DNA of 47,345 nt from Polaromonas sp. GTDB lineage: Bacteria > Pseudomonadota > Gammaproteobacteria > Burkholderiales > Burkholderiaceae_C. The notes below the pieces were generated by a model. It was given only the letters and a program-made list of their open reading frames with translations. It searched no databases and was not told the DNA's origin. The position numbers and the translations under genes were made by a program. Positions 656 to 28,249 of this stretch are shown one piece after another (the first letter of the stretch is position 1; each line of letters begins with the position of its first letter). The stretch covers positions 1 to 47,345 of the forward strand of contig NZ_JACDDD010000023.1 in the NCBI RefSeq assembly GCF_013817205.1, in the 5' to 3' direction.

Positions 656-717
656 TATGCATCAAATCGGGCTGTAGCCCTTGCTGTACCTGCGCAAGCA
701 GCTATCAAACCAGTAGC
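656..717 (-). repeat. R1 dispersed repeat, copy a
   Basis: Read on the minus strand this has the R1 order: a GCTACTGGTTTGATAGC start, the AGCTGCTTGCGCAG core, then CAAGGGCT, and a GATTTGATGCATA tail. It spans the 3' end of the Gfo/Idh gene, so the last residues (ALLV) and the TGA stop of that gene lie within the repeat, and it fills the spacer before the DUF993 gene. Confidence 0.75.
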
Positions 718-6010: not shown

Positions 6011-6057
6011 CTATCGGCGCCCGCAGGTCGGGGGCAAGACCTCGCTTTTATCAACAG
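5995..6057 (+). repeat. R1 dispersed repeat, degenerate copy b
   Basis: GCTACAAAAACAGTAGCTATC, a GGGGGCAAG block and a TTTTATCA tail follow the R1 order with several substitutions. It supplies the terminal residues and TAG stop of the ThDP enzyme. Confidence 0.5.
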
Positions 6058-6062
6058 ACATA

Positions 6063-9752: not shown

Positions 9753-10845
9753 AGAGGTCCTGCTGCCGCCCGCCGATCCCATCGCTGCAGTCATCCACCC
9801 CGACCCCTGGCCGTATTACCGGCAGCTGCGCGAAACGCGGCCGCTGTATTTCGATGCCGGCCTGAAGCTCTGGGTCGCCAGCAGCCTGGCGGTGATCAGC
9901 GAGGCTTTGCAGCATCCTGCATTGGCCGTGCGACCGCCGGGCGAGGCCGTTCCGGCGGCGCTGCAGGGCACGTGGGCAGGCGAGGTGTTTGCGCGGCTGG
10001 TACGCATGACGGACGGGGCATTCCATGCGGCCCACAAGCCGGCCGTGGTGAAGGCGGTGCGGCGCTGGACCCTCGAGGACGTGGGGCGCGCCAGCCAGGC
10101 GGCAGCGGCTGACCTGGGGCCGCGGCTGGGCGCCAATGCCTTGATCAGCGGGCTGCCCGTACAAACCATGGCGCGTTTGCTCGCTGTTGCGGACAGCGCG
10201 CTGGACGCCACCTGCGCCCATGTTCAGGCCTTAGTTCAAGGCATCGCTCCCGGTGCCTCGGAAACGTCTGTGGTGCTCGCTTCAGAGGCCGCCCAGGCCC
10301 TGACGGCCCAGGGCGTGATGCAGGGGCTGGACGCAGTGCAGGCGGCCAACCGCATCGCTCTGATGCAGCAGTCGCTGGACGCCACGGCCGGCCTGCTGGG
10401 CCACACCGTGCTGATGCTGCGGCGACATCCGGCGCTGGCTGGGGCTGCAGACCAGTCCTTGTCGGCGATGCGTGGTTTCGTGACTGAGGTCGAGCGGCAC
10501 CAGGCGCCTATCCAGAACACGCGACGTTTTGCGGCGCAGGCCCTGCAACTGGCCGGGCAGCGGATTGAACTGGGGCAGGGCGTGTTGCTGCTGCTGGCCA
10601 GCGGCAACCGCGATGAGGCGCTGAATCCGCAACCCGACACCTTTGATCCGCAACGCAGCGACCGCCGCAGCCTGGGGTTCGGAGCCGGCGCCCATGTCTG
10701 TCCCGGAGCCCAGATTGCTATCGAAATAGTAGCTGCTTGCGCACGCCAAATAAGGGCTGGAGCCCGATTTGATGCATATTTCGGGAAGCTGACAGGGTTT
10801 CGCCCGCTAGGCAATGCCCGCATTCCCGTGTTTGAAGAACGATGA
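9742..10845 (+). CDS. Cytochrome P450-like protein, divergent
   Basis: It starts at GTG 9742 or ATG 9745 and has about 367 residues, short for a P450 (usually about 400). The heme-binding loop FGAGAHVCPG with the proximal cysteine near residue 320 is intact, and EVERHQAPIQNTRR holds the K-helix ExxR and following region. The I-helix is unusual: ATAGLLGHTVLML replaces the usual AGxxT(T/S) oxygen-activation motif, so normal monooxygenation is doubtful. After the heme cysteine the L-helix and following residues (325-347, IAIEIVAACARQIRAGARFD) are encoded by an R1 repeat. It is coupled to OsmC upstream and followed 18 bp later by an ABM-domain gene. The substrate is unknown. Confidence 0.85.
   Translation: MMLEEVLLPPADPIAAVIHPDPWPYYRQLRETRPLYFDAGLKLWVASSLAVISEALQHPALAVRPPGEAVPAALQGTWAGEVFARLVRMTDGAFHAAHKPAVVKAVRRWTLEDVGRASQAAAADLGPRLGANALISGLPVQTMARLLAVADSALDATCAHVQALVQGIAPGASETSVVLASEAAQALTAQGVMQGLDAVQAANRIALMQQSLDATAGLLGHTVLMLRRHPALAGAADQSLSAMRGFVTEVERHQAPIQNTRRFAAQALQLAGQRIELGQGVLLLLASGNRDEALNPQPDTFDPQRSDRRSLGFGAGAHVCPGAQIAIEIVAACARQIRAGARFDAYFGKLTGFRPLGNARIPVFEER
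10714..10781 (+). repeat. R1 dispersed repeat, copy c, inside the P450 gene
   Basis: A near full-length forward copy: ATTGCTATCGAAATAGTAGC, then the TGCTTGCGCACGCC core, AATAAGGGCTGGAGCCCG and TTTGATGCATATTTC. It codes P450 residues about 325-347 in an open frame, directly after the heme-binding cysteine loop. Confidence 0.85.
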
Positions 10846-10863
10846 TTTACAAAGGAGCACACC

Positions 10864-11208
10864 GTGGTTTCAGTGATTTTTGAAGTCTGGCCCGACCCGG
10901 CCCACCGCGAGGGCTACCTCAATTGGGCGGCCGAGCTCCACACCGAGCTGGTCAAGATGGAGGGCTTTATCTCCATTGAGCGTTTCCAGAGCCTGACCGA
11001 GCCCGACAAGGTGCTGTCACTGCAGTTCTGGCGCGACGATGCCTGCCTGACGGCCTGGCGCAATCTGGAGGCGCACCGGGCCGCGCAGGCTGCAGGCCGC
11101 AGCACCATGTTCAAGAACTACCGGCTGCGCATCGCTGAGGTGACACGCGACTACGGGCTGGCGGCGCGCGAGGAAGCACCGGCAGACTCGCGGGTGGCGC
11201 ACGGCTGA
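10864..11208 (+). CDS. Antibiotic biosynthesis monooxygenase (ABM) domain protein
   Basis: GTG 10864 follows AAAGGAG by a good distance; the product has 114 residues. The ABM fold is suggested by MVSVIFEVWPDPAHREGYL, MEGFISIERFQS, LSLQFWRDDACLTAWRN and a terminal strand YRLRIAEV. ABM proteins are small ferredoxin-like dimers that act as cofactor-free monooxygenases or heme-degrading enzymes; this one lacks features that fix the substrate. It is 18 bp after the P450 gene and is likely part of the same ArsR-linked transcript. It is convergent with the TauE/SafE gene. Confidence 0.85.
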   Translation: MVSVIFEVWPDPAHREGYLNWAAELHTELVKMEGFISIERFQSLTEPDKVLSLQFWRDDACLTAWRNLEAHRAAQAAGRSTMFKNYRLRIAEVTRDYGLAAREEAPADSRVAHG

Positions 11209-11220
11209 CGGGCTCGCGGG

Positions 11221-12039
11221 CTACAGGCTGCTCAAGCCCTTCCAGAGCATGTAGGCGGCCAGCACATAAAGGATGCTGGCAAAGACGCGTTTTAGCTTGC
11301 TCACTGGCAGCTTGTGGGCGAACCTGGCGCCCAGCGGCGCCACAAAAAAGCTGGAGATGGCGATCACCACCAGCGCGGGCAGCCAGATGTAGCCGAAGGA
11401 CGCTGGTGGCAGGTTTTGCACGGACTGGCCGCTGATCACATACCCCAGCACGTTGGCCACGGCAATCGGAAAGCCCAACGCTGCCGAGGTGGCGACCGCG
11501 TTGTGGATCGCGACGTTGCACCAGGTCATGAAGGGCACGCTGATGAATCCGCCACCTGCGCCGACCAGTCCAGAGAGAAAACCAATGCCGCCGCCGGCTG
11601 CAAACTGACCTGCCGTGCCAGGCATTTGCCGCGTCGGCTTGGGCTTCCTGTCCAGAAACATCTGGGTGGCCGAAAAGCTTACGAAAAGCCCGAAGAAGAT
11701 GGCCAGGTAAGCACCTTTGAGCAGCGCAAAAACGCCCAGGCTACCGATGATGCTGCCGATCACGATGCCGGGTGCCAGGCGCCTGACGATGTCCCATCGC
11801 ACCGCGCCGCGCTTGTGGTGTGCCCGCACGCTTGAGATGGAAGTGAAGATGATGGTTGCCATCGAAGTGGCAATCGCCATCTTGACAGCCAGATCGGGCG
11901 CCACGCCGCGTTGCGCCATGATGATGGTGATGAATGGCACCATCAGCATGCCGCCGCCTATGCCCAGCAACCCCGCGAGGAAACCTGTGCCAATGCCCAG
12001 CAGGGCGAGTTCAAGAATGAGCAGGGGTTCGAAGAGCAT
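11221..12039 (-). CDS. TauE/SafE family sulfite exporter-like permease
   Basis: A 272-residue inner-membrane protein of the family's usual size. It begins MLFEPLLILELALLGIGTGF and contains the two internal repeat signatures GLLGIGGGMLMVPF and GLVGAGGGFISVPF, each a glycine-rich re-entrant-like segment followed by VPF. About eight membrane segments are apparent. The family moves sulfite, sulfoacetate or other sulfur anions, or acts in uncharacterised anion transport; the substrate is not visible. It lies downstream of 6S RNA on the same strand with an 81 bp spacer. Read-through from zapA/6S is possible but not shown. Confidence 0.93.
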   Translation of the reverse strand: MLFEPLLILELALLGIGTGFLAGLLGIGGGMLMVPFITIIMAQRGVAPDLAVKMAIATSMATIIFTSISSVRAHHKRGAVRWDIVRRLAPGIVIGSIIGSLGVFALLKGAYLAIFFGLFVSFSATQMFLDRKPKPTRQMPGTAGQFAAGGGIGFLSGLVGAGGGFISVPFMTWCNVAIHNAVATSAALGFPIAVANVLGYVISGQSVQNLPPASFGYIWLPALVVIAISSFFVAPLGARFAHKLPVSKLKRVFASILYVLAAYMLWKGLSSL

Positions 12040-12120
12040 GCGTTGTACAGACAGGCTGCTTGCCTCGGCAAGCGGTTGGGCGGCCGGTTTGGCGAGCGGT
12101 TTAAGAAGTCAGCAAAAGGT

Positions 12121-12292
12121 GTCTGCAAGTGCCACCGGACCGTCATCCTGAACCGGGGTTCAGGTGGGCGAGGGCAGTCAGGTTTCGGGTTCGTCTGACG
12201 CGAGACGATCACGCCTGCCAGACAATTTACCAAGCCCGTGCTCGTAGAGCATTGGTTCAAGGAAATATAAAGCCCGGTGCGCACCGCAGACG
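12121..12292 (-). ncRNA. ssrS: 6S RNA
   Basis: The minus strand downstream of zapA, the conserved position of ssrS in proteobacteria, carries a 6S-like sequence of about 172 nt. The closing stem pairs GTCTGCGGTGC at the 5' end with GCACTTGCAGAC at the 3' end. GGGCTTTATATTTCCTTGAA and CACGGGCTTGG form the 5' side near the central bubble, and CCTGAACC/GGTTCAGG gives a strong hairpin in the 3' half. A TACAAT -10 box lies just upstream and a T-rich stretch (CCTTTTGC) follows. 6S RNA binds the sigma-70 RNA polymerase holoenzyme by imitating an open promoter. Ends are approximate. Confidence 0.88.
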
Positions 12293-12297
12293 ATTCC

Positions 12298-12303
12298 ATT
12301 GTA
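12298..12303 (-). promoter_or_regulatory. -10 box of the 6S RNA promoter
   Basis: TACAAT on the minus strand lies about 7 nt before the predicted 6S RNA 5' end. A clear -35 hexamer is not evident in the preceding GC-rich sequence. Confidence 0.55.
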
Positions 12304-12376
12304 GGCGCTTGTAGCTGACTGTGCAGCTGGCGGCGGGGCGCTTGATGGCGCGTCGGTGGCGGTGCACCGCGCTGCG

Positions 12377-12730
12377 TTAAAGCAGGCGTCCGTCCACACC
12401 CAGGGCGTTGTCCAGGCGTTGCAGCAATGCCGCCAGTTGGGGCTGCGCCCCATCGGCTGGTGCAGTGCCTGCCGTATCCGCCCGGGCTGCGGCAGGCGCG
12501 GCGTTGCGTGTGGCCTTCAGCGCATTGGCTTCCTGCTCGGACAGCTCGAACGCCAGGTTCAGCGCTGCCAGCACGGCGATGCGGTCGCGCGCCTTGATTT
12601 TTCCGGCGTCGCGGATCTTGCACATCGCGGCATCGACTTTTTCCACCGCATCCAGCAAGCGCGCCTCGCCACCTTCAGGGCAGCCGAGCAGATAGCTCTG
12701 GCCCATGATCTGTACATCGAGCTGCTTCAT
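12377..12730 (-). CDS. zapA: Cell division protein ZapA
   Basis: A 117-residue protein starting MKQLDVQIMGQSYLLGCPEG, the standard ZapA opening. EARLLDAVEKVDAAMCKIRD and KARDRIAVLAALNLAFELSE match the dimer domain and start of the coiled coil. A low-complexity Ala-rich stretch (~residues 78-95) precedes a conserved-looking end. ZapA binds FtsZ at midcell and cross-links protofilaments. It overlaps the upstream zapB-like gene by ATGA (12727-12730), and 6S RNA follows, the classic zapA-ssrS order. Confidence 0.93.
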   Translation of the reverse strand: MKQLDVQIMGQSYLLGCPEGGEARLLDAVEKVDAAMCKIRDAGKIKARDRIAVLAALNLAFELSEQEANALKATRNAAPAAARADTAGTAPADGAQPQLAALLQRLDNALGVDGRLL

Positions 12731-12984
12731 GAGTCTGATCCGGCTGTGCTTCTTGCGGAAGCAGCGCCCAGGCTGACGGACGATGATGAGTCGGGCAAAC
12801 GCTCAAGCAGCGCAACGACGCGCGCGCGCGCGGCGCTCAGGCGCGAGCGCAGGGAGTCGCGTTCCTGTGTGAGCACATGCACCTGTTCGCTGAGCAGGGT
12901 GTTGGTGCGCTGCAATTCCTCGTAGCGCAGCAGGAGCCGCTCGACACGTTCGGCAATCTGGTCGATGTGGGTTTGGTTCGACAT
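12727..12984 (-). CDS. ZapB-like / TIGR02449-type coiled-coil protein
   Basis: An 85-residue protein starting MSNQTHIDQIAERVERLLLR. Residues 5-65 form a heptad-like helix (LRYEELQRTNTLLSEQVHVL, TQERDSLRSRLSAARARVVA) and the tail is Ser/Ala-rich. Proteins of this kind sit directly upstream of zapA in beta- and gammaproteobacteria and are named ZapB-like or TIGR02449; a role with ZapA at the division ring is inferred from position. It is divergent from the riboswitch-led cobalamin operon, sharing a short promoter region. Confidence 0.85.
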   Translation of the reverse strand: MSNQTHIDQIAERVERLLLRYEELQRTNTLLSEQVHVLTQERDSLRSRLSAARARVVALLERLPDSSSSVSLGAASARSTAGSDS

Positions 12985-13036
12985 GGCTTTGTGATTGTAG
13001 GGTTTGCCGGGTTTTGGGGCGTAGAATCTCGCCTGT

Positions 13037-13303
13037 TGGTGCTCGCGGTGTGGTTCACACGCTGCAGTTCAACGGGAAGCAGGAGGGAGTTTTCGCCATG
13101 CGTTCGGGGTTCACCCCGGTCCGCAAGCGCCGCTACTTTTAACCTGCGCTGCCCCCGCAACGGTAAAACGGACGAATGTTTTCCCTGAAATTCAGCTTCA
13201 GGTGCATTCAGCCCCATCACAGCCACTGAGCGTTTGAACACACGTTTGGGAAGGCGATGGGGACAGTTCCGTCAGCCCGGATACCGGCCAACAAGGTGGT
13301 TGC
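13037..13303 (+). promoter_or_regulatory. Cobalamin (adenosylcobalamin-type) riboswitch
   Basis: Conserved blocks occur in the right order: AACGGGAAGC (13071-13080), the core GCTGCCCCCGCAACGGTAA (13149-13167), and the B12-box region GTCAGCCCGGATACCGGCC (13271-13289). A TAGAAT -10 box at 13022-13027 would start the transcript just upstream. The element lies between zapB and btuB and ends ~80 bp before the btuB start, leaving room for the hairpin at 13338-13367 as an expression platform. High cobalamin is expected to switch off the whole downstream operon. Confidence 0.95.
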
Positions 13304-13337
13304 ACGCCCGCAAGGGCTGCAGCCGTAACGCTCAATG

Positions 13338-13367
13338 CACTGGCGGGGAAGCCGGTGAGGGCTTTTT
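13338..13367 (+). terminator. Probable riboswitch expression-platform terminator
   Basis: CACTGGC pairs with GCCGGTG (one G-T wobble) around a GGGGAA loop and is followed by AGGGC and five T. It lies 18 bp before the btuB start, so ligand-dependent termination (or start-site masking) is plausible. Confidence 0.55.
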
Positions 13368-13384
13368 GTTGATTGTTTCCACCC

Positions 13385-15268
13385 ATGAAAACCTGTGTTT
13401 TTTATGCGCGCCCTGCCGCGTTGTCGCTGGCTTTGGCCGCTGCTTTGCCTGCGCTTTGTCAGACCGAAAAATCGTCCGAACTCGTCCAGACCGTTGTCAC
13501 GGCCTCGCGCGTGGCGACACCGGTCACCGATGTGATTGCCGACGTATCCATCATTGATCGGGAGACACTGGATCGGGCCGGGCAGTCGTCACTGCGCGAC
13601 ATCCTGGCACAGCAGCCCGGCGTGCAGATGGGCAGCAATGGAAGCTACCGCTCGAACTCAAGCATTTTCCTGCGCGGCGCCAGCAACTCGCAGACCATTG
13701 TTTTGATTGACGGCGTTCGGGTCGGCTCGGCAACTTCGGGCGGAGCATCGTTCGAGAACCTGCCGCTGGCGCGTATTGAGCGGATTGAAATTTTGCGCGG
13801 TGCCGCCTCTGCCCTGTATGGGCCGGACGCCGTGGGCGGCGTGATCCAGATTTTCACCCGTGAGCCCGCCGACGGCCTGGCACTCAGTGCCAGCGCCGGC
13901 TTTGGTTCGGACGGTCAGCGGCAACTGGACGCATCAGTGCGTGGCAGCACTGGCGCCATCGGGTACAGCCTGGGGGTATCGCGTGAAAAAGCGCGGGGCA
14001 TCAGTTCTGTTTCCAGCCCGCTATCGCCCAGTTTCAATCCCGATGCCGACGGTTTCAGTTCTACCAGCGTGGACGCCAAGCTGACCGCAAAAATCAACCG
14101 CGAGCATGCGCTGACGTTGAGTTTGCTGCAGAGCGATACCGAGTATCAGTTCGATGGTTTGCCCTCTCCCAATCCGCTGGCCTTGACCCGGCTTACCTCT
14201 GATGCCCGGGCCAAGCCAAAGCTCAACAATGCCACCTTCAAGTGGGAAGCGCAGTGGCTGCCGCAGTGGAAATCCACGCTCACAGCGGGAACCAGCGATG
14301 AGGAATCGGTCAACGAGTACTACCGCATCTCTGACAGACGCTTCGGTGGCGCCAGCCGGTTCAACACCCAGCGCAGGCAATTGACCTGGCAAAACGACTT
14401 CACGCTGGGCAAGGATGTGTTGTCTGTGTTGTTTGAGGACCGTTCCGAGGCGGTGGAGAGCTCCACCAACTACACGGTCAAGCAGCGTGACCTGCGCAGC
14501 GCCCTGGTGTCCTATGCGTTCAACCGGGAACGCTGGAATGCGCTGGCTGTGATCCGTAACGACAAAAACTCCCAGTTCGGCAGCTTCAACAACTGGGCGC
14601 TTGCCGCCGGTTACCGCTTGACGGACGGCCTGCGTGCCGTGGGCAGCGTGGGCACAAGTTTCCAGGCTCCCACCTTTAATCAGCTTTACTTTCCGGGTTT
14701 TGGCAATGCGGCCCTGGTGCCCCAGCGCAACCGGGCCACTGAAGTGGGCCTGAAATACCAGCAGGGCAATCTGGCGCTCGGAGCGGTGGCCTACCACAAC
14801 GACATTCAAGGCTTCATCATTCCATCGACCAATGTACAGAGTTCGCTGGCGGTGTTGCGCGGGGTCACGCTGACCGCCGATGTGCAGTCTGGCACCACCA
14901 GTTATGCGCTGTCTTACGACTATGCTGACCCGCGCTCCTACTCGTCTGTGCCGGCTTCCAATGGCCTGCGCCTGGTGCGTATTGCGCAACATGTACTCAA
15001 TGCCCGCGTCACCCACCGTATGGGTGATGTCAGTGTGTTTGGTGAACTCAGGCTGTCCGGCAACCGCGAGGACGCCAAGGTGGTCGGGGCTGGCCGCGAT
15101 ACCTTGCCCGGTCACAGCGTGCTCAATACCGGCGTGACCTGGAAGGTTCAGAAAGATGTCACCCTGTTAGGCCGCATCAACAACCTGACCGATACCCGCT
15201 ACATGCTTGCCAACGGCTTTTCGGTACCCGGTCGCAATTTCTTTGCGTCCGTTTCATGGGCCATGTGA
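13385..15268 (+). CDS. btuB: TonB-dependent vitamin B12 outer-membrane receptor BtuB
   Basis: ATG 13385 gives 627 residues; an ATG at 13373 is also in frame but lies before the natural signal peptide MKTCVFYARPAALSLALAAA. After cleavage near LCQTEK, a TonB-box-like segment (ELVQTVVTASR) begins the plug domain, with LRDILAQQPGVQMG, SSIFLRGASNSQTIVLIDGV and IERIEILRGAASALYGPDAV. The C-terminal barrel ends with an aromatic strand FFASVSWAM. BtuB imports cobalamin and other corrinoids across the outer membrane using TonB. Its placement behind a cobalamin riboswitch supports the substrate. It is followed 3 bp later by cobB. Confidence 0.95.
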   Translation: MKTCVFYARPAALSLALAAALPALCQTEKSSELVQTVVTASRVATPVTDVIADVSIIDRETLDRAGQSSLRDILAQQPGVQMGSNGSYRSNSSIFLRGASNSQTIVLIDGVRVGSATSGGASFENLPLARIERIEILRGAASALYGPDAVGGVIQIFTREPADGLALSASAGFGSDGQRQLDASVRGSTGAIGYSLGVSREKARGISSVSSPLSPSFNPDADGFSSTSVDAKLTAKINREHALTLSLLQSDTEYQFDGLPSPNPLALTRLTSDARAKPKLNNATFKWEAQWLPQWKSTLTAGTSDEESVNEYYRISDRRFGGASRFNTQRRQLTWQNDFTLGKDVLSVLFEDRSEAVESSTNYTVKQRDLRSALVSYAFNRERWNALAVIRNDKNSQFGSFNNWALAAGYRLTDGLRAVGSVGTSFQAPTFNQLYFPGFGNAALVPQRNRATEVGLKYQQGNLALGAVAYHNDIQGFIIPSTNVQSSLAVLRGVTLTADVQSGTTSYALSYDYADPRSYSSVPASNGLRLVRIAQHVLNARVTHRMGDVSVFGELRLSGNREDAKVVGAGRDTLPGHSVLNTGVTWKVQKDVTLLGRINNLTDTRYMLANGFSVPGRNFFASVSWAM

Positions 15269-15271
15269 GGC

Positions 15272-17541: not shown

Positions 17542-18125
17542 ATACCCCTCACATAGCCCGCAGCGAATTGATCCTCGGCGGCCAGCGCAGCGGCAAGTCG
17601 CGCCGTGCCGAGATGCTGGCGCGGCAATGGCTGGACGCTGCACCTGAGCACCGGGCGCTGCTGATCGCCACCGCACAGCCCTGGGATGCGGAAATGCGTG
17701 AACGTATCGCGCGCCACCGGCAGGACCGAGCCGAACGTGTGCCGGGCATGACCACGGTGGAGGAGCCGCTGAACCTGGCACAGGCGATCACGCAGAACAG
17801 CAACGCGCAGACGCTGATCGTTGTTGATTGCCTGACACTGTGGCTGACCAATCTCCTCATGCCGGCCGGGAGTTCACAGCAAAATAGCCTTCCAGCCCCC
17901 GAGCCACAAGCGCAGACAGCTATGGTTTTGATAGCAATACAGAATTGCACCGGCCCGCTGGTGCTGGTCGGCAACGAGATCGGGTTGGGCGTTATTCCGA
18001 TGGGCCGCGAGACCCGCGACTTTGTCGACGCGTTGGGGCGGCTCAACCAGGAGGTAGCTGCCGCCTGCGAGCGCGTCACCTTCATGGCGGCCGGGTTGCC
18101 ACTGACGCTCAAGGGCTCCCCATGA
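17538..18125 (+). CDS. cobU: Bifunctional adenosylcobinamide kinase / adenosylcobinamide-phosphate guanylyltransferase
   Basis: ATG 17538 gives 195 residues (the Pseudomonas name is cobP). ELILGGQRSGKSRRAE is the diagnostic P-loop, ARHRQDRAE contains the histidine that is guanylylated, VVDCLTLWLTNLLMPAG and VGNEIGLGVIPMGRETRDFV are family blocks. It phosphorylates adenosylcobinamide and then attaches GMP, activating it for the lower-loop transfer. Residues ~114-134 (SQQNSLPAPEPQAQTAMVLI) come from an inserted R1 repeat in the variable linker, just before CTGPLVLVGNEIG. It overlaps both neighbours by ATGA. Confidence 0.95.
   Translation: MNTPHIARSELILGGQRSGKSRRAEMLARQWLDAAPEHRALLIATAQPWDAEMRERIARHRQDRAERVPGMTTVEEPLNLAQAITQNSNAQTLIVVDCLTLWLTNLLMPAGSSQQNSLPAPEPQAQTAMVLIAIQNCTGPLVLVGNEIGLGVIPMGRETRDFVDALGRLNQEVAAACERVTFMAAGLPLTLKGSP
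17878..17938 (-). repeat. R1 dispersed repeat, copy d, inside cobU
   Basis: Minus-strand reading: TTGCTATCAAAACCATAGCT, then GTCTGCGCTTG, CTCGGGGGCTGG and an AGGCTATTTTGCT end. It codes the linker around residues 114-134 of CobU in an open frame. Confidence 0.8.
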
Positions 18126-18988: not shown

Positions 18989-20004
18989 GCCCGCAGCGCA
19001 GCGCGCAGAACCGCAGGGCGCTGTGGCTGGCCGGCGGCTTGCTGCTGGCCACGGGCTTGTTGTTGCTGTTGGGCGTCAGCGTGGGCAGCACCGGCTTCGA
19101 AAGTGTGCGGGCCATGGGTCGCGATGCGCAGGCCCTCCAGATTGTCTGGGAGATCCGTCTGCCACGCACCGTCGGCGCCTGGCTGGCCGGCGCGCTGCTG
19201 GGGCTGGCCGGCGCCGTGGCGCAAGGCCTGTTTCGCAACCCGCTGGCCGATCCTTACCTGCTGGGCAGCGCATCCGGCGCCTCGCTGGGCGTGGCGCTGG
19301 CCATGGCGCTGTTCGGTGTGTCACCGCTGGCCACGCACTGGGTCGCGCGCATCGGGCTGACCGGGGCCGCTTTTGTCGGTGCTGTGCTGGCGGTGCTGCT
19401 GACCCTGTTGCTGGCCAAGGGCGTGCAGCACACCCTGCGCCTGTTGCTGGCCGGCGTGATTGTGGGCGTGGTGCTGGGGGCGCTCAGCTCGCTGATCCTG
19501 CTGATGACCCCGGACATCATGCAGGCCATGCAGTCCTTCATGCTGGGCAGCACCGCCTTTGTCGGCTGGACCGCCTGCGCCGTAATGGCGGGCGCGCTGC
19601 TTGCCAGTTTGCTGGCGGCCTGGATGATGAGCCATGTGCTCGACGGGCTGGCGCTCGGTGAAGCCACTGCACAAAGCCTGGGCCTGAAGCTGCCGCAAAT
19701 GCGCGCGGCGCTGGTTGCGGTGCTGGCGCTGGCCACCGGCACGGCGGTGGCGCAGACCGGGTTGGTGGCCTTTGTCGGCCTGGCTGCGCCGCATCTGGTG
19801 CGCTCGGTGGTCAAGACCACCCACGGTCGGCTGATTGTGCTCGCCACCCTGATGGGCGCGGTGTTGTTGATGGCCGCCGACATCCTGGCACGCTGGTTGA
19901 TTGCGCCGCAGGAGTTGCCGGTCGGCGTGTTGACCGCCGTGCTCGGTGGCGGTTACCTGCTGTGGCTGATGCACCGAAGCAGCGCAAGGGGAGGGGGCAT
20001 CTGA
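18985..20004 (+). CDS. btuC: BtuC/FecCD-family ABC transporter permease
   Basis: ATG 18985 gives 339 residues with about ten membrane helices. Family motifs include WEIRLPRTVGAWLAGALLGL, GAVAQGLFRNPLADPYLLGS (the conserved NPLADPxxLG block contacting the ATPase) and AFVGLAAPHLVRSVV near the end. It forms the inner-membrane channel for corrinoid import. Its TGA overlaps the btuD ATG by one base. Confidence 0.94.
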   Translation: MSPQRSAQNRRALWLAGGLLLATGLLLLLGVSVGSTGFESVRAMGRDAQALQIVWEIRLPRTVGAWLAGALLGLAGAVAQGLFRNPLADPYLLGSASGASLGVALAMALFGVSPLATHWVARIGLTGAAFVGAVLAVLLTLLLAKGVQHTLRLLLAGVIVGVVLGALSSLILLMTPDIMQAMQSFMLGSTAFVGWTACAVMAGALLASLLAAWMMSHVLDGLALGEATAQSLGLKLPQMRAALVAVLALATGTAVAQTGLVAFVGLAAPHLVRSVVKTTHGRLIVLATLMGAVLLMAADILARWLIAPQELPVGVLTAVLGGGYLLWLMHRSSARGGGI

Positions 20005-20795
20005 TGTCGGGAATATCTCCAATTGCTATCAATTCAGTAGCTGTGCACGCAAGCGGGGTAAGGGCCAGACTCGGAAATACCGAGATATTGCACGATGTGT
20101 CGCTGGCCGTGCCGGCAGCTCGCTGGACCAGCATTGTTGGGCCCAATGGCGCCGGCAAGTCCACCCTGCTAAAGGTGCTGGCGGGGCTGCTGCCCTGCAG
20201 TGGAAGCATCACCCTGCTCGGACGGCCCCTGGCCGAGTTGCCTGCCCGCGAGCGCGCGCAGCAGCTGTCATGGCTGGGCCAGAACGAAAGCTCGCCCGAC
20301 GACCTGACGGCCTGGGACGTTGCCATGCTGGGCCGCTTGCCGCACCAGGCCTGGCTGGCGCCGCCCAGCGCGCAGGACCACGCCGCTGTCGAGCGTGCGC
20401 TGCGCGCGACCCACGCCTGGGACTGGCGCGAGCGCGCCCTCGGCCAGCTCTCTGGCGGTGAGCGTCAGCGCGTGCTGCTGGCGCGGGCGCTGGCGGTCGA
20501 GGCGCAGATGTTGTTGATGGACGAGCCGCTGGCCAACCTGGACCCGCCACACCAGGCCGACTGGCTGCTGATGGCCCGCGCGCTGGTGGCGCAGGGAAAA
20601 ACCGTGGTCAGCGTGCTGCATGAGATCTCGTTCGCGCTGCAGGCCGATGAACTGGTGGTGATGGCCGACGGCCGTGTCATGCACCAGGGCGCCTGCGCTG
20701 ACCCGGCCACCCACCGCGCGCTGGAAAGCGTGTTTGCGCAGCGCATCGCCGTGCACCCGTTGGCTGGCCAGTGGCTGGCCGTGCCCCGAATCTGA
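20004..20795 (+). CDS. btuD: Cobalamin ABC transporter ATP-binding protein BtuD
   Basis: 263 residues with a complete ATPase: Walker [14 protein letters not shown]-loop in [20 protein letters not shown], signature [17 protein letters not shown], Walker [12 protein letters not shown] and H-loop [10 protein letters not shown]. It powers BtuC. The N-terminal residues ~7-26 ([19 protein letters not shown]), before the core strand EILHDVSL, are encoded by an R1 repeat copy, so the first beta-strand region of this ATPase is of repeat origin or was replaced by it. Confidence 0.95.
20022..20080 (+). repeat. R1 dispersed repeat, copy e, N-terminus of btuD
   Basis: ATTGCTATCAATTCAGTAGC, then TGTGCACGCAAGCGGGGTAA and GGGCCAGACTCGG. 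Same orientation and same reading frame (IAI..VAV) as copy c in the P450 gene. The tail diverges from the other copies. Confidence 0.7.
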
Positions 20796-20812
20796 AAGCT
20801 GAAAGACACCCC

Positions 20813-21394: not shown

Positions 21395-21397
21395 GGC

Positions 21398-22108: not shown

Positions 22109-22118
22109 AAGCCACGCC

Positions 22119-22583
22119 ATGCCTTTTGAAAATGCCCTGTTCCAGCTCGCCCAGATGTTTCTCTGGCCGGTCACCCTGTTGGTGTTCGCCGTATTTGCCT
22201 ATGCGGTGATGTCCCTGGGCGCCTTCGGCGTGGAGTGGCTGCGGCGACGACGCCAGCCCGATCGGCTGCTGCTGCTGAACCGGCTTAGCGACGCCTCGGC
22301 CGAAGCGCTGGAACTGGCGGTACTCAAGGAGCTTGAAGGTTTGCGGCTGTGCAGCCGCGTCGCGCCCATGTTGGGACTGGTGGCGACCATGATCCCCATG
22401 GGCCCGGCGCTGGTCGCGGTGGCTTCGGGCCAGTCGCAGGGCGTGGCGCAAAACCTGGCGCCTGCTTTTGCGGCGGTGATCGTGGCGCTCGTCGCAGCAT
22501 CGATCACCTTTGTGGTGTACAGCGTGCGCCGGCGCTGGCTGCTCGCGGAAATGCTGGCGGTGCTGGACGGGCAGACCGCATGA
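22119..22583 (+). CDS. MotA/TolQ/ExbB-like proton channel family protein
   Basis: ATG 22119 gives 154 residues, shorter than ExbB/TolQ (about 220-240). Membrane segments lie near residues 13-35 (PVTLLVFAVFAYAVMSLGAF), 80-100 (SRVAPMLGLVATMIPMGPAL) and 112-135 (LAPAFAAVIVALVAASITFV). The middle segment matches the conserved GLLGTVxGM-type helix of the ExbB family (MLGLVATMIPMGPAL). Homologues paired with a DUF2149 protein and a CobN-family protein occur in methanogens and, as I recall, in Bacteroides heme-uptake loci. It probably forms a proton-driven motor with the next gene product. It overlaps that gene by ATGA. Confidence 0.8.
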   Translation: MPFENALFQLAQMFLWPVTLLVFAVFAYAVMSLGAFGVEWLRRRRQPDRLLLLNRLSDASAEALELAVLKELEGLRLCSRVAPMLGLVATMIPMGPALVAVASGQSQGVAQNLAPAFAAVIVALVAASITFVVYSVRRRWLLAEMLAVLDGQTA

Positions 22584-22999
22584 GCCCGCCCGGCAGCGCT
22601 TCGCCCAAGCCAGTCACAAGAGTGGCAGCCGCCAGGCCGCGCATGCGCATTCTTGACGAGGACGACGACGACCCGGTGCTCTCCACCATCAACCTGATCG
22701 ACGTGTTTCTGGTCGTCATTGGCATGCTGCTGATTGCGGTGATCAACAACCCGCTCAACCCGTTCGCTAATGACAAGCTGACCATCATCCGCAACGAAGG
22801 CCAGCCCGACATGGAAATCATCACCAAGGACGGCCAGAAGCTCACCCGCTTCAAGGCCAGCGGTGCCTCGGGCGAGGGCGATGGTGAAAAAGCCGGTACC
22901 GCCTACCGCATGAAGGACGGCACCATGGTGTACGTGCCGGTCGTCCCGGTCGTCCCGGTCGTGCCCGACGGCGCGCAGGCTCAGGGGGCGCGGCCATGA
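22580..22999 (+). CDS. DUF2149 family membrane protein (ExbD-like partner)
   Basis: 139 residues from ATG 22580. A charged cytoplasmic start (RMRILDEDDDDPVLSTINLI) leads into one membrane helix (DVFLVVIGMLLIAVINNP) and a soluble periplasmic part (DKLTIIRNEGQPDMEIITKD). The topology matches ExbD/TolR: short N-terminus, one helix with an aspartate at its start (NLIDVFLV), periplasmic tail. That aspartate is the natural candidate for the proton-carrying residue. The C-terminus has a VPVVPVVPVVP repeat. It overlaps the TolQ-like gene and the CobN-family gene by ATGA, giving a three-gene module. Confidence 0.82.
   Translation: MSPPGSASPKPVTRVAAARPRMRILDEDDDDPVLSTINLIDVFLVVIGMLLIAVINNPLNPFANDKLTIIRNEGQPDMEIITKDGQKLTRFKASGASGEGDGEKAGTAYRMKDGTMVYVPVVPVVPVVPDGAQAQGARP
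22936..22968 (+). repeat. Short tandem 9-bp repeat in the DUF2149 gene
   Basis: About three copies of a CCGGTCGTC unit encode the VPVVPVVPVVP tail. The unit keeps the frame, so copy-number change would only lengthen or shorten the periplasmic tail. Confidence 0.7.
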
Positions 23000-25900
23000 C
23001 GCTGGTGCGTCGCCTGCTGGCCAGCGTGCTGTTGCTGCTGTTGCTCGGGGCAGCGGGGGCTGCGGCCCAAACTACCCAGCTGCATGTGGTGTTGCTGACC
23101 ACCTACGTGGTCACGCCGTCGCGGCTGGCGCAACTCGTGGCCGGGGCGCGGCAGGCCGGGGTGCCCCTGACCACGCTGTCGGCCGAACAAGGCACGCCAG
23201 AGGCATTGGCCCAGGCGTTGCGCGGTGCGCGCTTGCTGGTGATTGATGCTCCGCACAGCAGCGTGGCGCAAAACACGGCCGCCCGCTTCGGCGACATCCT
23301 GGACAAGGGCGATACCCCGTATGTGCTGGTGGGCGAGTTTGCCGCCGTGGCGAACAAGCAGCCCGTGGCCGCTGCGCCCCTGGCCGCCGAGCGCGGCGTG
23401 GACAGCGCCTGGGCACAGCGCCTGCGCGAGTACTGGCGCTTTGGCGGTGCGGCCAACATCGCTTTGGCCATGAGCGCCCTGAAGCAGTCGCTGGCCGGCA
23501 CGCCCGACGCTGCGGCCCTGCCAGTTGCTGTGCAGTTGCCTCTGGCAGGCTTTTACCACCCGCGTTGGCCGCAAATGCAGAGCCAGGCATCGGAGCTCGA
23601 TCAGCTGCCGTTTTCAGCATCAAATATGCCTCGAGCCCTTATGGGACGGGCGCAAGCAGCTCCCAAAACAGTAGCAATCGCCGTCAACAACGCCGTTTTT
23701 ACCGGTGCCGACACCGGCTGGCTGGACAGCCTGATCGCCGCGCTGGAGCAGCGCGGGCTGCGCGCCTACGCGTTTTACGGGCCGCGCCAGCAACAAGACC
23801 TGTTCTATCAGGCCACCCACATCACTGAGCCGGCGGGCCAGCGGCGTGTTGCCGACCTCATCATCAATGCCGCGCTGGTCTTCAACCCGACCGGGCGCAA
23901 GGCCGAGCTCGAGCGGATCGGCGTGCCGGTGCTGCAGACCATGCCGGCGCTGGCGATGAACCCGCCCGAATGGGCGCAGAGCCGCGACGGGCTGGCGCTC
24001 AGCGATGTGTCCTACTACTACACGCCCAGCGAGTTGTCGGGCATGGTCGATGCCATGCTGATCACGGCGCGCGACACGACCAGCGGCTCGCTGCTGCCTA
24101 TCGCCGGCCAGATCAACGCCGTGGCCGACAAGGCCGCCGCCCTGGTGCGCCTGCAGCAGACGCCACCGGCGCAGCGCCGCGTGGCGATGATGGTCTACAA
24201 CTATCCGCTGGGTGAGGGCAATGTGGGCGCGTCCTTCCTGAACGTGCCGAAAAGCCTGCATAACATGCTGGCCGCGATGAAAGCCGCCGGCTACCAGACC
24301 CAGGCGCCGACGGCGGATCAGATCACGCCCCAAGTGCAGGCCACCATGACCGCGTTTTACAAGCCCGAGCTGGTGCGGGGCCTGCTGGCGCAGGGGCTGG
24401 CCGAGGCCTTGCCGCTGGCCAGCTACCTGACCTGGTTCCGCAGCCTGCCACCGGCCACACAAAAGCGCATTGAGGACTACTGGGGGCCGGCCGACAAGGC
24501 CGCCATGCTGCGTGCGACCGATGCAGGCCAGCCGGCCTTCATCATCCCGCGGCTGCAGCTGGGCGAGGTAGTGATCCTGCCGCAGCCGCTGCGCCACGAG
24601 ATCACGGCGTCAAGCTCAGCCGAGCAGCGCAAAAAACGCATCGGCCACCGCTCCCAGGTGCCGCTCAGCCACAACTACCTGGCCACCTACCTCTGGCTGC
24701 GCACCCAGTTCGGCGCCCATTCGCTGGTGCATGTGGGCACACATGGCACGCTGGAATGGGCACCGGGCAAGGAGCGCGGCCTCTCGGCGCAGGACGATCC
24801 GCTGCTGGCCCTCGGCGACATGCCCAACATCTACCCCTACATCATGGACAACCTCGGCGAGGCACTCACCGCCAAGCGGCGCGGCCGCGCGGTGCTGGTC
24901 AGCCACTCGACGCCGATGTTTTCACCGGCCGGTTTCCGCCCCCAGGTGCACGAGATGCACGACCTGATGCATGACTGGGAAACCGTCGCCCCCGGGCCGG
25001 TCAAGGCTGAGCTGGAAGCGCGCCTGATCACCCACTTTGTCGAGCACAACTACCATCTTGACCTGAAGTGGAGCCGGGAAAAAATCCGCAACAACTTTGC
25101 CGGATTCATGGAAGTGCTGCACCCCTTTATGGATGACCTGGCGCAGGCCGCCCAGCCGCTGGGCCTGGCCGCCTTCGGCGAGGTGCCGGACGCACAGCGC
25201 CGCCTGCTGACCGTGCTGCAGACCCTGCGCAAGCCGTTGATCGAGGCGCTCGGTGAGGATATCGACGAGGTCTTTTTGCTCGACGGCGCACGCCTGATGC
25301 AGTCGCGCCCCGCGCGCTGGTTGCAGGTCGCGTTGAAAGACCCGCAGGCCGCGAGCCGGCTGGACCTGCGCGCCGAAGACGCGAAGAATCCAAAGACCTC
25401 GGTGCCGAATCGCGCCGAAGCCAAGCTGCTGGACCCGCAGGTGCTGCTGGCACTGGCGCAGCGCGCCATCCAGCTCGATGCCGCGCTGGCCAACAACGAA
25501 GAGATCAGCGGCTTTCTGAAAGCGCTGGACGGCCGGCATCTGGCCGCCAGTTACGGCGGCGATCCGGTGCGCAACCCCGACAGCCTGCCGACGGGCCGCA
25601 ACCTCTACGGCTTCGATCCCGGCCGCGTGCCGACACGCCAGGCCTGGGACACCGGGGTGGCCGCCTTCGATGCCTGGATGGCGCAGCACCGCGCAGACAA
25701 CAAGGGCCGGTGGCCTCAAAAAATTGCCTTCACCCTGTGGGCCGGCGAAACCATGCGCCATCAGGGCGTGATGGAAAGCCAGGCCCTGCACGCCCTGGGT
25801 TTGCGCCCGCGCTGGGATGACGCTGGCCGCGTCACCGGCCTGGATACGGTGCCGGCCAGCGAACTCAAACGACCCCGGCTCGATGTGCTGCTCAGCGTGA

Positions 25901-27189
25901 CCGGCTCCTACCGCGACCAGTTCCCGACCGTGATGCGCTGGCTCGATCAAGGCGTGCAGCAAGTGGCCGCCTTGCGCGAGGCCGACAACTTCGTGGCGCG
26001 CAACTCCGAGGCGCTCGCCCGAACCATGCAGGCCGGCGGCGCCACAGCAGCGCAGGCGCGGCGCTGGTCCACCGCACGGGTCTTCTCCAACGAGCAGGGC
26101 GCCTACGGCACCGGCCTTGCCGATGCGGCGCAGGCCACCGACCTCTGGCAGACTGCGGCCAGAGCCGGGGGCGACGCAGAGATGGCCAGCCTGTACATGG
26201 CGCGCATGGGCCATGCCTACGGCGAAGGGCTGGGCGAGTCGGATAGTGGCGGCGAGTCATCGACTGTGCTCAACAAGCTGCGCAGCGCTGTCTATGCAGG
26301 CAACCTCCGGCAGGTCGACACCGCCTTGTTGTCCCGTACCTCCAACACCTACGGTATGCTGACCAGCGATGATCCTTTCCAGTACCTTGGCGGCATATCG
26401 CAGGCGGTGCGTCAACTGACCGGCAAAGACCCCTCCCTCTATGTCCAGAATCTGCGTGACGCCACAGAAGTCAAGACCGAAACTGCGGCCAGCGCGCTGA
26501 CCAAGGAAATGCATACCCGTTACCTGCATCCGCAATGGATCAACGCGCAAAAGGCCGAAGGCTACAGCGGCACCCTGCAGGTGCTCAAGACGGCACAGTT
26601 TCTCTGGGGCTGGCAGGTCACCTCACCACAGACGGTGCGGCAGGACCATTGGCAGTCGCTGCACAACGTGTATGTGCGCGACCAGTACAAACTGGGCACA
26701 CGGCAGTGGCTGGAAGGCCATAACGGGGTTAGCCGCGCGGCTTTCGCACAGACGCTGGAGCGCATGCTCGATGCAGTGCGCCTCAATTACTGGCGGCCCG
26801 ACGATGCGACGAAAAAAGAGCTGGCGCAGGCGTACATGGACGCACTCAAGGCAACCGGTTTGCGCGAAAGCAATCCCGCGGTGCGGCGTTTTGTTGAAGC
26901 GCAAGCCGGTTCTGTCCCGCCCGCAGCCACGCGCCAGATTGTGCAGCCCGCGACTGCGGCCGCGCCGCAACCCCTCGCCCAGGTGACAGATGCACAGCTT
27001 GCCCCAAAATCGCCTGCGGCGGTGCAGGGATTGAAACTCGAACCGCAGGCCGACGTGCCCGCGCCGAAAGCCACGCCCGTGGTGGACACCCTCTTTGCGC
27101 TGTTTGCCACGGCGCTGTTGCTGGCGCTGGGCGCCTGGCGGCAGGCACGGCGTGGCCGCGTCGCCGTGGCCTCGCGTCATCGAGGATAG
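22996..27189 (+). CDS. cobN: CobN/magnesium-chelatase H-family protein, exported and membrane-anchored
   Basis: 1397 residues. The family core is clear: MVYNYPLGEGNVGASFLNVP, VGTHGTLEWAPGKERGLSAQ, GDMPNIYPYIMDNLGEALTA, KRRGRAVLVSHSTPMFSPAG and FTLWAGETMRHQGVMESQAL. In aerobic B12 synthesis CobN with CobS/CobT inserts cobalt in the cytoplasm. This copy differs: the N-terminus (MTLVRRLLASVLLLLLLGAA then GAAAQTT) is a signal peptide, and residues ~1365-1385 (TLFALFATALLLALGAWRQA) are a C-terminal membrane helix followed by basic residues, so the catalytic domain should face the periplasm. No cobS/cobT lies nearby; the TolQ-like/DUF2149 pair just upstream may supply energy. A role in periplasmic metal insertion or removal on a tetrapyrrole is inferred. 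An R1 repeat codes residues ~207-228. Confidence 0.88.
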   Translation: MTLVRRLLASVLLLLLLGAAGAAAQTTQLHVVLLTTYVVTPSRLAQLVAGARQAGVPLTTLSAEQGTPEALAQALRGARLLVIDAPHSSVAQNTAARFGDILDKGDTPYVLVGEFAAVANKQPVAAAPLAAERGVDSAWAQRLREYWRFGGAANIALAMSALKQSLAGTPDAAALPVAVQLPLAGFYHPRWPQMQSQASELDQLPFSASNMPRALMGRAQAAPKTVAIAVNNAVFTGADTGWLDSLIAALEQRGLRAYAFYGPRQQQDLFYQATHITEPAGQRRVADLIINAALVFNPTGRKAELERIGVPVLQTMPALAMNPPEWAQSRDGLALSDVSYYYTPSELSGMVDAMLITARDTTSGSLLPIAGQINAVADKAAALVRLQQTPPAQRRVAMMVYNYPLGEGNVGASFLNVPKSLHNMLAAMKAAGYQTQAPTADQITPQVQATMTAFYKPELVRGLLAQGLAEALPLASYLTWFRSLPPATQKRIEDYWGPADKAAMLRATDAGQPAFIIPRLQLGEVVILPQPLRHEITASSSAEQRKKRIGHRSQVPLSHNYLATYLWLRTQFGAHSLVHVGTHGTLEWAPGKERGLSAQDDPLLALGDMPNIYPYIMDNLGEALTAKRRGRAVLVSHSTPMFSPAGFRPQVHEMHDLMHDWETVAPGPVKAELEARLITHFVEHNYHLDLKWSREKIRNNFAGFMEVLHPFMDDLAQAAQPLGLAAFGEVPDAQRRLLTVLQTLRKPLIEALGEDIDEVFLLDGARLMQSRPARWLQVALKDPQAASRLDLRAEDAKNPKTSVPNRAEAKLLDPQVLLALAQRAIQLDAALANNEEISGFLKALDGRHLAASYGGDPVRNPDSLPTGRNLYGFDPGRVPTRQAWDTGVAAFDAWMAQHRADNKGRWPQKIAFTLWAGETMRHQGVMESQALHALGLRPRWDDAGRVTGLDTVPASELKRPRLDVLLSVTGSYRDQFPTVMRWLDQGVQQVAALREADNFVARNSEALARTMQAGGATAAQARRWSTARVFSNEQGAYGTGLADAAQATDLWQTAARAGGDAEMASLYMARMGHAYGEGLGESDSGGESSTVLNKLRSAVYAGNLRQVDTALLSRTSNTYGMLTSDDPFQYLGGISQAVRQLTGKDPSLYVQNLRDATEVKTETAASALTKEMHTRYLHPQWINAQKAEGYSGTLQVLKTAQFLWGWQVTSPQTVRQDHWQSLHNVYVRDQYKLGTRQWLEGHNGVSRAAFAQTLERMLDAVRLNYWRPDDATKKELAQAYMDALKATGLRESNPAVRRFVEAQAGSVPPAATRQIVQPATAAAPQPLAQVTDAQLAPKSPAAVQGLKLEPQADVPAPKATPVVDTLFALFATALLLALGAWRQARRGRVAVASRHRG
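23615..23679 (-). repeat. R1 dispersed repeat, copy f, inside cobN
   Basis: Minus-strand reading: GATTGCTACTGTTTTGGGAG, then CTGCTTGCGCCCGTCCCATA, AGGGCTCGAGGC and ATATTTGATGCTG. It codes SNMPRALMGRAQAAPKTVAI of the CobN-family protein. Confidence 0.85.
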
Positions 27190-27199
27190 GGAGCCTCAG

Positions 27200-28249
27200 A
27201 TGCTGACAGCGTGGAACTTCTTCCAGTTGGATCCAAGCCCCGGGATGCTCGCGGTGTGTGTGGCGATTGTTATGGTGTTTGTGCTGGTGCTGGCCCTGTC
27301 GATTGATGCGCGCTGGGGCGAACCAAGACCGGTTGTCCATCCTGTCGTCCTGATGGGCCGTTACCTGCAGGCCTGCGGGGATGTGATCACTGCCCGTCCG
27401 CCGGCCCTGGCTTTTGTCGGCGGCGCGCTGGCCTGGCTGGCCGGGGTGCTGGTTGTGGGCGCCCTAACTTTTGCGCTGCAGGCCCAGATCTTGCGTCAGG
27501 TCACGCATCTGGTGCTGAATCCGGGGCTGGACAAGGCCGCCATTGCCATGCTGTGGGTAGTGCTCATGGGATGGCTGCTCAAATGCATGTTGTCCTGGCG
27601 CATGCTGCATGACGAGGTCGGTGCGGTGGAGACCGCCTTGCAGCAATCGGTGGAAGCCGGGCGTGCACGGCTGGCCTGGCTGGTCAGCCGCAACACCGCC
27701 CTGCTCAGCGAGAGCGAGGTGCGAGAAAGCGCTATCGAGTCACTGGCCGAAAATCTCAACGATTCGGTGGTGGCACCGGTGTTCTGGTTCGTTCTGTTCG
27801 GCCTGCCGGGCGCGGCCATCTACCGTTTTGCCAATACCGCCGACGCGATGTGGGGCTACCGCGGCATGCACCGCGGGCAGCACTGGGAGTGGGCCGGCAA
27901 ATGGGCGGCGCGTGCCGATGACGTGTTGTCCTGGTTGCCAGCGCGCCTGACGGCTGGTTTGCTGGCATTGGTGGCGCGCGGCCTGCCGGTGGGCGCCTTG
28001 CGTTGGGAAGCCGCCAAGACACCGTCGCCCAACAGCGGCTGGCCAATGGCGGCCATGGCGCTGGCGCTGGGTGTCAGCCTGCGCAAGCCGGGGGTGTACA
28101 CCCTCAACGCCGCAGGCCGGCCGGCCGAAGCCGCTGACACCGCCTCGGCCCGGAAATATGCATCAAAAGCGGTGTTTGCCCTTGTCCTGTGGGCGACGAC
28201 AGCTATCTTTTTAATAGCATTGACCTTGTTCCCGGGAATTTCGCAATGA
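27200..28249 (+). CDS. cobD: Adenosylcobinamide-phosphate synthase (CobD/CbiB)
   Basis: ATG 27200 gives 349 residues. This membrane enzyme joins adenosylcobyric acid to (R)-1-amino-2-propanol phosphate. Family blocks: DARWGEPRPVVHPVVLMGRY (DxxxGDPxxxxHPVxxMG), SRNTALLSESEVRESAIESL, AENLNDSVVAPVFWF and YRFANTADAMWGYRG. About five hydrophobic segments are seen. The final helix and tail (residues ~318-341, KYASKAVFALVLWATTAIFL) are encoded by an R1 repeat, so the last membrane segment is repeat-derived. It overlaps cobC by ATGA. Confidence 0.94.
   Translation: MLTAWNFFQLDPSPGMLAVCVAIVMVFVLVLALSIDARWGEPRPVVHPVVLMGRYLQACGDVITARPPALAFVGGALAWLAGVLVVGALTFALQAQILRQVTHLVLNPGLDKAAIAMLWVVLMGWLLKCMLSWRMLHDEVGAVETALQQSVEAGRARLAWLVSRNTALLSESEVRESAIESLAENLNDSVVAPVFWFVLFGLPGAAIYRFANTADAMWGYRGMHRGQHWEWAGKWAARADDVLSWLPARLTAGLLALVARGLPVGALRWEAAKTPSPNSGWPMAAMALALGVSLRKPGVYTLNAAGRPAEAADTASARKYASKAVFALVLWATTAIFLIALTLFPGISQ
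28153..28221 (-). repeat. R1 dispersed repeat, copy g, 3' end of cobD
   Basis: Minus-strand reading: CAATGCTATTAAAAAGATAG, then CTGTCGTCGCCCACAGGACA, AGGGCAAACACCGC and TTTTGATGCATATTTC. It ends 28 bp before the cobD stop and shares frame with copies d and f. Confidence 0.85.

Follow-up and report, generated by a model that had tools for sequence, protein, structure and literature searches.

A 47,345-nt stretch of DNA from Polaromonas sp. (NCBI RefSeq assembly GCF_013817205.1, contig NZ_JACDDD010000023.1; hereafter the window, to which all positions refer unless a contig or locus label is given) carries a short repeat, R1, inside five protein-coding genes, always in an open frame. How did the same DNA come to lie in unrelated genes, and what is it for? 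The initial annotation proposed that R1 had been inserted, like the protein-invading palindromic elements of Rickettsia. We favor a reading in which R1 is a DNA motif recognized throughout the genome, assembled where it stands by point substitutions and serving as an uptake sequence does, and put its probability at about one half.

The copies noted earlier fell into one family in a repeat search of the window. Thirty copies from the genome aligned almost without gaps across 68 columns and were used to build a sequence-only model; the training set contained none of the copies in cobU, cobD and btuD or at 45105. Scanned with this model, the genome (3.77 Mb) showed at least 150 matches, and the window seven. 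A weight matrix refined on 446,088 bases (the window plus 20 stretches of 18.7-20 kb, together 11.8% of the genome) found 78 R1 sites, including eight in the window. The density of about 1 per 5.7 kb, extrapolated from this sample, corresponds to some 650 sites per genome. Simulated sequence of equal size yielded no match at threshold 8 with a Markov model of order 1, and no score above 0 with order 2. Scores of genomic DNA were two-peaked, with the 78 sites ranging from 14 to 90 and none falling from 5 to 10. The R1 family is real, about 66 bp long and free of gaps, and its in-gene and intergenic copies belong together above chance (78 matches versus 0 simulated), as had been claimed.

All five in-gene copies were recovered by the model, the matrix or both. 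The copy in the cytochrome P450 gene (9745-10845) lies at 10715-10780 on the plus strand, in frame F2 over codons 324-345, directly past the haem-cysteine stretch CPG (model 61.3 bits, matrix 78.0). In cobU (start about 17538, stop 18125), R1 occupies 17872-17937 on the minus strand in frame R2 (model 28.8 bits). The copy at the 5' end of the gene for a BtuD-like ABC ATPase (20004-20795) lies at 20023-20088 on the plus strand in frame F2 (model 19.3 bits), and matches well in its first ~50 columns only, the model match covering 20023-20071 (columns 1-49). Within cobN (22996-27189), R1 falls at 23612-23677 on the minus strand, in frame R2 over codons 206-227, which form a loop (model 61.7 bits). 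The last copy, at 28155-28220 on the minus strand, runs across the last codons of cobD (27191-28249) in frame R2 (model 25.0 bits over 28155-28219), and overlaps a possible start (28189) of the ORF of the next gene. The Pfam matches of the host genes were p450, CobU, ABC_tran, CobN-Mg_chel and CobD_Cbib, respectively. The sharing of frames first noted from the sequence was borne out, with P450 and btuD in F2, and cobU, cobN and cobD in R2. The location of four copies in B12 genes was likewise correct, but enrichment in the operon was not found: the eight sites per 47.3 kb of the window amount to 1.7 per 10 kb, versus 1.75 sample-wide.

Genes were called with our own codon-usage script, by which 89.9% of the sample was coding. 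Thirty-six of the 78 sites lay wholly in genes, 11 at gene edges and 31 between genes, so that R1 is depleted in genes (46% of copies versus ~90% coding DNA, p = 8e-22). The btuD copy had been filed as intergenic because the gene finder put the btuD start at 20097; it was treated as a 37th in-gene copy, with its frame taken from its coordinates. The consensus is stop-free in frames F2 and R2. The 36 in-gene copies were distributed over the frames as R2 17, F2 12, R1 3, R0 2, F1 1 and F0 1, and the 29 copies in F2 or R2 exceed expectation with frames weighted by the openness of intergenic copies (p = 0.002). Frame is therefore non-random, as suspected at the outset. The accompanying statement that the other frames contain stops held in part; it failed for the reverse frame labeled R1, which is nearly open, with its only consensus stop at the far end, and which is open in 15 of 31 intergenic copies.

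Copies not internal to genes were in surplus between convergent genes (12 of 41 placed copies versus 25 of 200 gaps, p = 0.015), which would suit a role in RNA, as a terminator, stability element or small-RNA target. We consider this the least probable of the readings weighed here, since in-gene copies lie on both strands (14 with the host gene, 22 against it), and the consensus has no stable RNA fold (-1.45 kcal/mol, without a covarying pair). None of the R1 sites in the window had an Rfam match.

If R1 had been inserted, relatives should differ in length at its sites. Orthologues of the cob genes were compared in G004, which belongs to the same genus, and in up to eleven further relatives. 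In cobD, 22 residues align over the R1 stretch in nine of nine relatives. The corresponding stretch of cobU has 23 residues in the window and G004, and 19-27 in eight others, while for btuD the count is 17 in the window and in both G004 and G123, and 11-16 in the other eight. Seven in-gene sites of another contig of the same genome (C99:1-20000) have 22 residues in the aligned orthologues, including those of the R1-poor genome G247, with two exceptions (site 4830, with 18 residues in G014, and site 15815, with 32 in G004). The P450 gene had no orthologue among the relatives fetched; against solved P450s it shows no extra length at the R1 segment (query 205-361 aligned to chain 238-396 of 5gwe). 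Because residue counts over R1 are equal in orthologues at most sites, insertion is not the rule. The comparison of orthologues had been set as the check on the insertion idea, and it came out against insertion at cobD (nine of nine), at btuD and cobU (both equal to G004), and at the C99 sites, with cobN as the main exception.

These results bear on the possibility that R1 is a short mobile element, akin to a Rickettsia palindromic element (RPE), a repetitive extragenic palindrome (REP) or a miniature inverted-repeat transposable element (MITE), that inserts in frame and adds residues. Its high copy number fits such an element, and so do several exceptions in length. The cobN loop has 23 residues in the window and G004, two R1-bearing genomes, versus 8-15 in 11 other relatives; part of this loop may have been inserted, which would make cobN a partial exception. 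The site at C99:15815 varies in length between orthologues, as given above for G004. Three intergenic or gene-edge sites are missing as whole units in a relative along with a length difference: L073:601 (68 bp), G303:15358 (about 99 nt) and L074:7550, where an unrelated longer sequence stands; L073:601 and L074:7550 are sites of C99. Judged from these alignments, gain or loss of a whole site by indel happens, mostly outside genes. A mobile element is nevertheless improbable, and for genes largely refuted: besides the equal residue numbers at most in-gene sites, native residues are retained within the motif (for example the W and E codons of a reductase site, C99:4830), the copies of the genome show no subfamily structure, and only 3 of 72,556 plasmid records and 0 of 50,697 phage records match (counts unnormalized for the share contributed by this family).

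We assessed codon choice by synonymous resampling with the codon usage of the genome and a leave-one-out matrix (2000 resamplings each). The observed score lay above all resamplings at 37 of 37 in-gene sites (mean 47.5 observed versus -9.7 resampled), including the P450 site (2000 of 2000). Orthologous sites in the R1-poor genomes G247 and G156 scored from -10 down to about -110, the residues there being similar and their number mostly the same; at four C99 sites, G247 scored -10, -30, -44 and -86, versus 39.5, 46.6, 56.5 and 40.3 in the Polaromonas genome. The signal therefore lies in DNA rather than protein, because synonymous resamplings never match the observed score and R1-poor orthologues encode similar residues. 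At fourfold sites in strong columns, identity with G247 and G156 was found in 3 of 20 cases, versus 1364 of 2231 in the flanks (p = 3e-5), the flank count entering genes with several sites once per site. Left out of both groups were G250 (3 of 9 strong fourfold sites identical), G014 (3 of 9) and G123 (6 of 12). G247 and G156 are R1-poor, not R1-free (six model matches in G247; 19 and 22 copies of the exact R1 dyad described below), and the comparison of R1-rich with R1-poor genomes is unpolarized as to the direction of change. Together, these alignments and scores make an in-place origin by substitution well supported at most in-gene sites.

R1 is also maintained between relatives. In site-by-species comparisons with G004, G248, G241 and G017, R1 was kept in place and orientation in 34 of 39 cases, a count that covers flank-anchored sites only. 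Agreement at weak, middle and strong columns was 0.43, 0.58 and 0.87 for intergenic orthologues, 0.71, 0.72 and 0.88 for in-gene orthologues, and 0.32, 0.50 and 0.80 for paralogues within the genome. Because orthologues exceed paralogues, with strong columns most alike, the sites descend individually and their strong columns are held. In the close pairs G303-G109 and G248-G241, strong columns agreed at 0.92-1.00 and weak columns at 0.63-0.82, the weak columns diverging more than the flanks; since the flanks include coding DNA, this is not read as elevated mutation. Fourfold positions among R1-bearing congeners agreed in 92 of 124 cases at strong columns versus 53 of 98 at weak columns (p = 0.003), and in 6574 of 9859 in the flanks; agreement of strong columns over flanks among these congeners was not significant (p = 0.08). 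The cobU site is matched in same-length orthologues of G004 (R1 score 38.5) and of G123, from another genus (40.6), and the btuD site stands at the same place in G004 (35.9) and G123 (23.7). The cobN and cobD sites are not common to the window and G123. At L073:9349, an R1 site is conserved amid a scrambled stretch.

Could R1 instead spread by conversion, with an abundant single-stranded or repeat template overwriting each site and taking it toward the consensus in one step? Conversion would leave length unchanged, as is usually seen, and the small number of intermediate scores fits it too (36 genomic matches from -20 to 5 versus 12 simulated, a slight surplus). We regard it as very improbable, since native codons persist within the in-gene sites, which are mosaics, and orthologous copies beat paralogues at weak columns (0.43-0.71 versus 0.32). 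The latter indicates that copies are not homogenized.

The consensus, TTGCTATTAATTTGATAGCTGCTTGCGCACGTCCGACAAGGGCTAGAGGCCGATTTGATTCAAAAA, holds about 56 bits, with informative columns spread across about 64 bp. It contains the dyad GCTAT-N7-ATAGC, and all 26 exact dyads of the sample fall in R1 sites. Lone half-motifs (left at least 12, right at least 16) numbered 0 outside R1 sites in the sample. No column pair covaried above shuffled columns within the genome (0.199 versus 0.290), and there is therefore no sign of subfamilies. Between lineages, the consensus differs in its middle block (G000, G136, G110, genus g86 and Diaphorobacter), so that R1 exists in lineage dialects. In some of these (L139, L143, L138) the middle forms a clean inverted repeat (GCGCCCG...CGGGCGC; AGCGCTT...AAGCGCT), whereas the genome of the window has it in imperfect form. 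The G+C content of 71 matches was 0.38-0.61, mostly 40-60%, with two at 0.62.

Placement of R1 is near Poisson, with a mean of 1.72 and variance of 1.49 in 10-kb bins, and the closest neighbors are 112 bp apart. One 20-kb stretch, C99:20001-40000 (L072), has no R1 site; the adjoining 20 kb has eight. Neighboring sites were co-oriented in 38 of 72 pairs. A replication-linked motif of the Chi or KOPS kind was considered and rejected, as no clear strand bias was seen among the matches listed. Over 20 trial origins, co-orientation departed furthest from an even split in G110 at 28 of 75 listed matches and in G136 at 24 of 36 (75 and 36 of 150 scored).

To follow R1 across genomes, the exact dyad was counted with a reversed-pattern control. 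In 37 genomes of the same genus it occurred at least 38 times in 24, 14-19 times in two, and 0-5 times in 11 (control 0-5). Twenty-four genomes of other families had 0-10 dyads (control 0-18), and among 299 genomes drawn from the same family about 80, counted by eye, had at least 20, with the control never above 7. Within genus g86, G303 and G109 have 206 and 284 dyads, versus 1 and 2 in G209 and G362; R1 is present or absent wholesale between congeners. This contrast offers a natural experiment for finding a gene that accompanies R1. Named matches were a Polaromonas metagenome-assembled genome and plasmids of Diaphorobacter, Rhodoferax and a Comamonadaceae strain. On the plasmid of Diaphorobacter sp. 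HDW4A (NZ_CP049911.1, L138), R1 copies at 9001-9066 and 13089-13154 flank cobN: one overlaps the 3' end of the gene, and the other lies upstream of the start.

The main rival to the uptake reading is that R1 marks the sites of an intracellular DNA-binding protein, acting in chromosome organization, recombination or defence against foreign DNA, with selection site by site. The evidence for a maintained double-stranded motif fits this equally well, and the dyad, together with the second inverted repeat of some dialects, is of the kind favored by dimeric DNA-binding proteins. The loss of hundreds of sites between congeners in g86 would be odd for essential architecture, however, and no orientation or spacing pattern relative to replication was seen (orientation among the matches listed). 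We consider such a binder rather unlikely, though the most serious of the alternatives.

For the uptake reading, R1 shares many features with the uptake signal sequences (USS) of Pasteurellaceae and the DNA uptake sequences (DUS) of Neisseriaceae. Like R1, these occur in hundreds of chromosomal copies, lie in genes but are depleted there and have a non-random frame, arise by substitution and not insertion, form lineage dialects, and are placed and oriented nearly at random. For USS, 47-70% of copies are in coding DNA (PMC2346458), and the same alignment-gap test as applied here identified them as products of substitution, not insertion (PMC1626085); their evolution by point mutation is also described in PMC7811141, and dialects of DUS in PMC3630211. 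R1 differs from both in its length and information (about 64 bp and ~56 bits, versus a core of 9-12 bp with flanks) and in belonging to a different bacterial family. Its density of about 1 per 6 kb is below that of USS, ~1 per kb (PMC7811141). In Comamonadaceae, the family in which R1 occurs, sequence-selective DNA uptake through type IV pili has been reported for Verminephrobacter eiseniae, and the Acidovorax strains tested were not transformed by DNA of other Acidovorax species; the parts of that report drawn on here give no signal motif for this selectivity (PMC4212676).

Under the uptake reading, R1 would be a motif of about 64-66 bp in double-stranded DNA that point substitutions build and preserve at some 650 places in each genome, whether coding or not. 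Within genes, native codons would drift toward the motif in the two frames that can be translated tolerably and without stops, normally with no insertion. A competence receptor would prefer motif-bearing DNA, and recombination with DNA taken up from kin would keep renewing motif-bearing alleles. The Polaromonas genome has comEC and a pilin of the ComP_DUS family, encoded at C57:37072-37344, but comEC and ComP_DUS occur in R1-poor genomes as well and three R1-rich drafts lack a comEC match. We therefore infer the uptake role, and a protein that would read R1, from these comparisons.

Beyond the exceptions in length given above, several observations weigh against the uptake reading. comEC was present in 54 of 61 genomes and ComP_DUS-type pilins in 51 of 61, R1-poor ones included, and three incomplete R1-rich drafts (G002, G011, G020) gave no comEC match. 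Both genes were tried as receptor candidates by presence and absence and rejected: since they are also found in R1-poor genomes, neither separates R1-rich from R1-poor. R1 is far longer than the uptake sequences described, with their cores of 9-12 bp, and its two halves always occur together. In pooled genomes, a few column pairs covary above the shuffled maximum (0.193 versus 0.130), which we read as dialects. Twenty-two of 44 viral-contig loci (L158-L201), found by a 16-base core, carry R1-like sites; these loci may be prophages or host flanks. Finally, the matrix was trained on the genome in which it was applied, although the copies in cobU, cobD and btuD and at 45105 were recovered by the model blind to them.

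Comparison with described repeats sets R1 apart. RPEs resemble R1 as a repeat family in open frames of unrelated genes, in a frame that fits the host gene (for R1, 29 of 36 in F2 or R2). They are insertions of about 150 bp that add peptides (PMC10969869), whereas R1 has 66 bp and mostly adds or replaces nothing. R1 was also rejected as a palindrome of the RPE type (about 100-150 bp with a stable fold), given its 66 bp and weak fold, although it does hold a short dyad. BRE, a repeat of Betaproteobacteria including Comamonadaceae, likewise has some copies in coding sequences, but is described as 75-91 bp long, 69% G+C and often tandem (PMC3110155), traits absent from R1, with its lower G+C and neighbors at least 112 bp apart. 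This separation from BRE is by description and not by sequence.

Closer to R1 are two motifs that a 2017 paper lists as potential novel motifs with no explained role, their copies often lying close to the ends of genes and in the gaps where genes converge (PMC5217627). GCTTAT(N)5AAGCG of Acidovorax ebreus TPSY (114 copies, 107 of 114 intergenic) matches the middle of both Diaphorobacter R1 copies. ATAGCT(N)22CAAAAG of Polaromonas naphthalenivorans CJ2 (125 copies, 101 of 125 intergenic) agrees in spacing with R1 columns 15-20 and 43-48. Both look like pieces of R1 dialects when set against the motif. The portion of that paper bearing on them gives six-plus-five-base fragments, without the full motif, the bending of codons in genes, dialects or function. 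A literature search for the full motif found no description in the collection of papers searched; in a literal text search, four R1 strings had no match and six dialect strings matched only papers that, judged from the listing, are unrelated. The R1 family has been glimpsed before, not described.

The three remaining R1 copies in the window lie between genes or at gene edges. One, at 654-719 on the minus strand (model 69.9 bits over 654-718), is mostly intergenic and touches the 3' end of the gene at 705-1868(-) and the 5' end of that at 3-662(-). A second, at 45104-45169 on the minus strand (model 39.2 bits over 45105-45168), is intergenic between the genes at 42707-45028(+) and 45181-45822(-). 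The third, at 5993-6058 on the plus strand (matrix 38.7, sequence-only model 10.0 bits), was absent from the initial annotation; it spans the stop codon of a thiamine pyrophosphate (TPP)-enzyme gene (4307/4349-6010), so that 18 bp of it belong to the 3' end of that gene and the remainder lies downstream.

Other features of the window were seen in passing. A cobalamin riboswitch (Rfam RF00174, 61.5 bits) lies at 13020-13306 (+), directly upstream of the gene (13385-15268) that opens the B12 cluster, and a 6S/SsrS RNA (RF00013, 49.7 bits, gathering threshold 46.4) at 12116-12295 (-). A minus-strand ORF contains nine copies of a 15-nt coding repeat in register (6377-6581), which by codon reading probably encode a lysine/alanine-rich, histone-like tail.

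For the interpretation of genomes, R1 shows that repeat-like DNA in an open frame need not be an insertion, and that comparison of orthologues and synonymous resampling are the tests to apply first. Uptake signals have been described in two families only (PMC7811141), and R1, if the uptake reading is true, would be a third, unrelated and much longer one. More tentatively, and with somewhat less confidence than in uptake itself, R1 can be pictured as an independently evolved uptake signal that far exceeds the others in length: a 'password' of 64 bp, read through many contacts and differing in dialect from genus to genus. Such a signal would have shaped the genomes of many Comamonadaceae and hundreds of their proteins, and would explain their species-limited natural transformation. 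If so, the sequence-specific transformation of Verminephrobacter and Acidovorax would become a testable mechanism, and R1, with about half of some 650 sites in genes, would show how strongly a DNA-level motif can dictate the codons and residues of ordinary enzymes.

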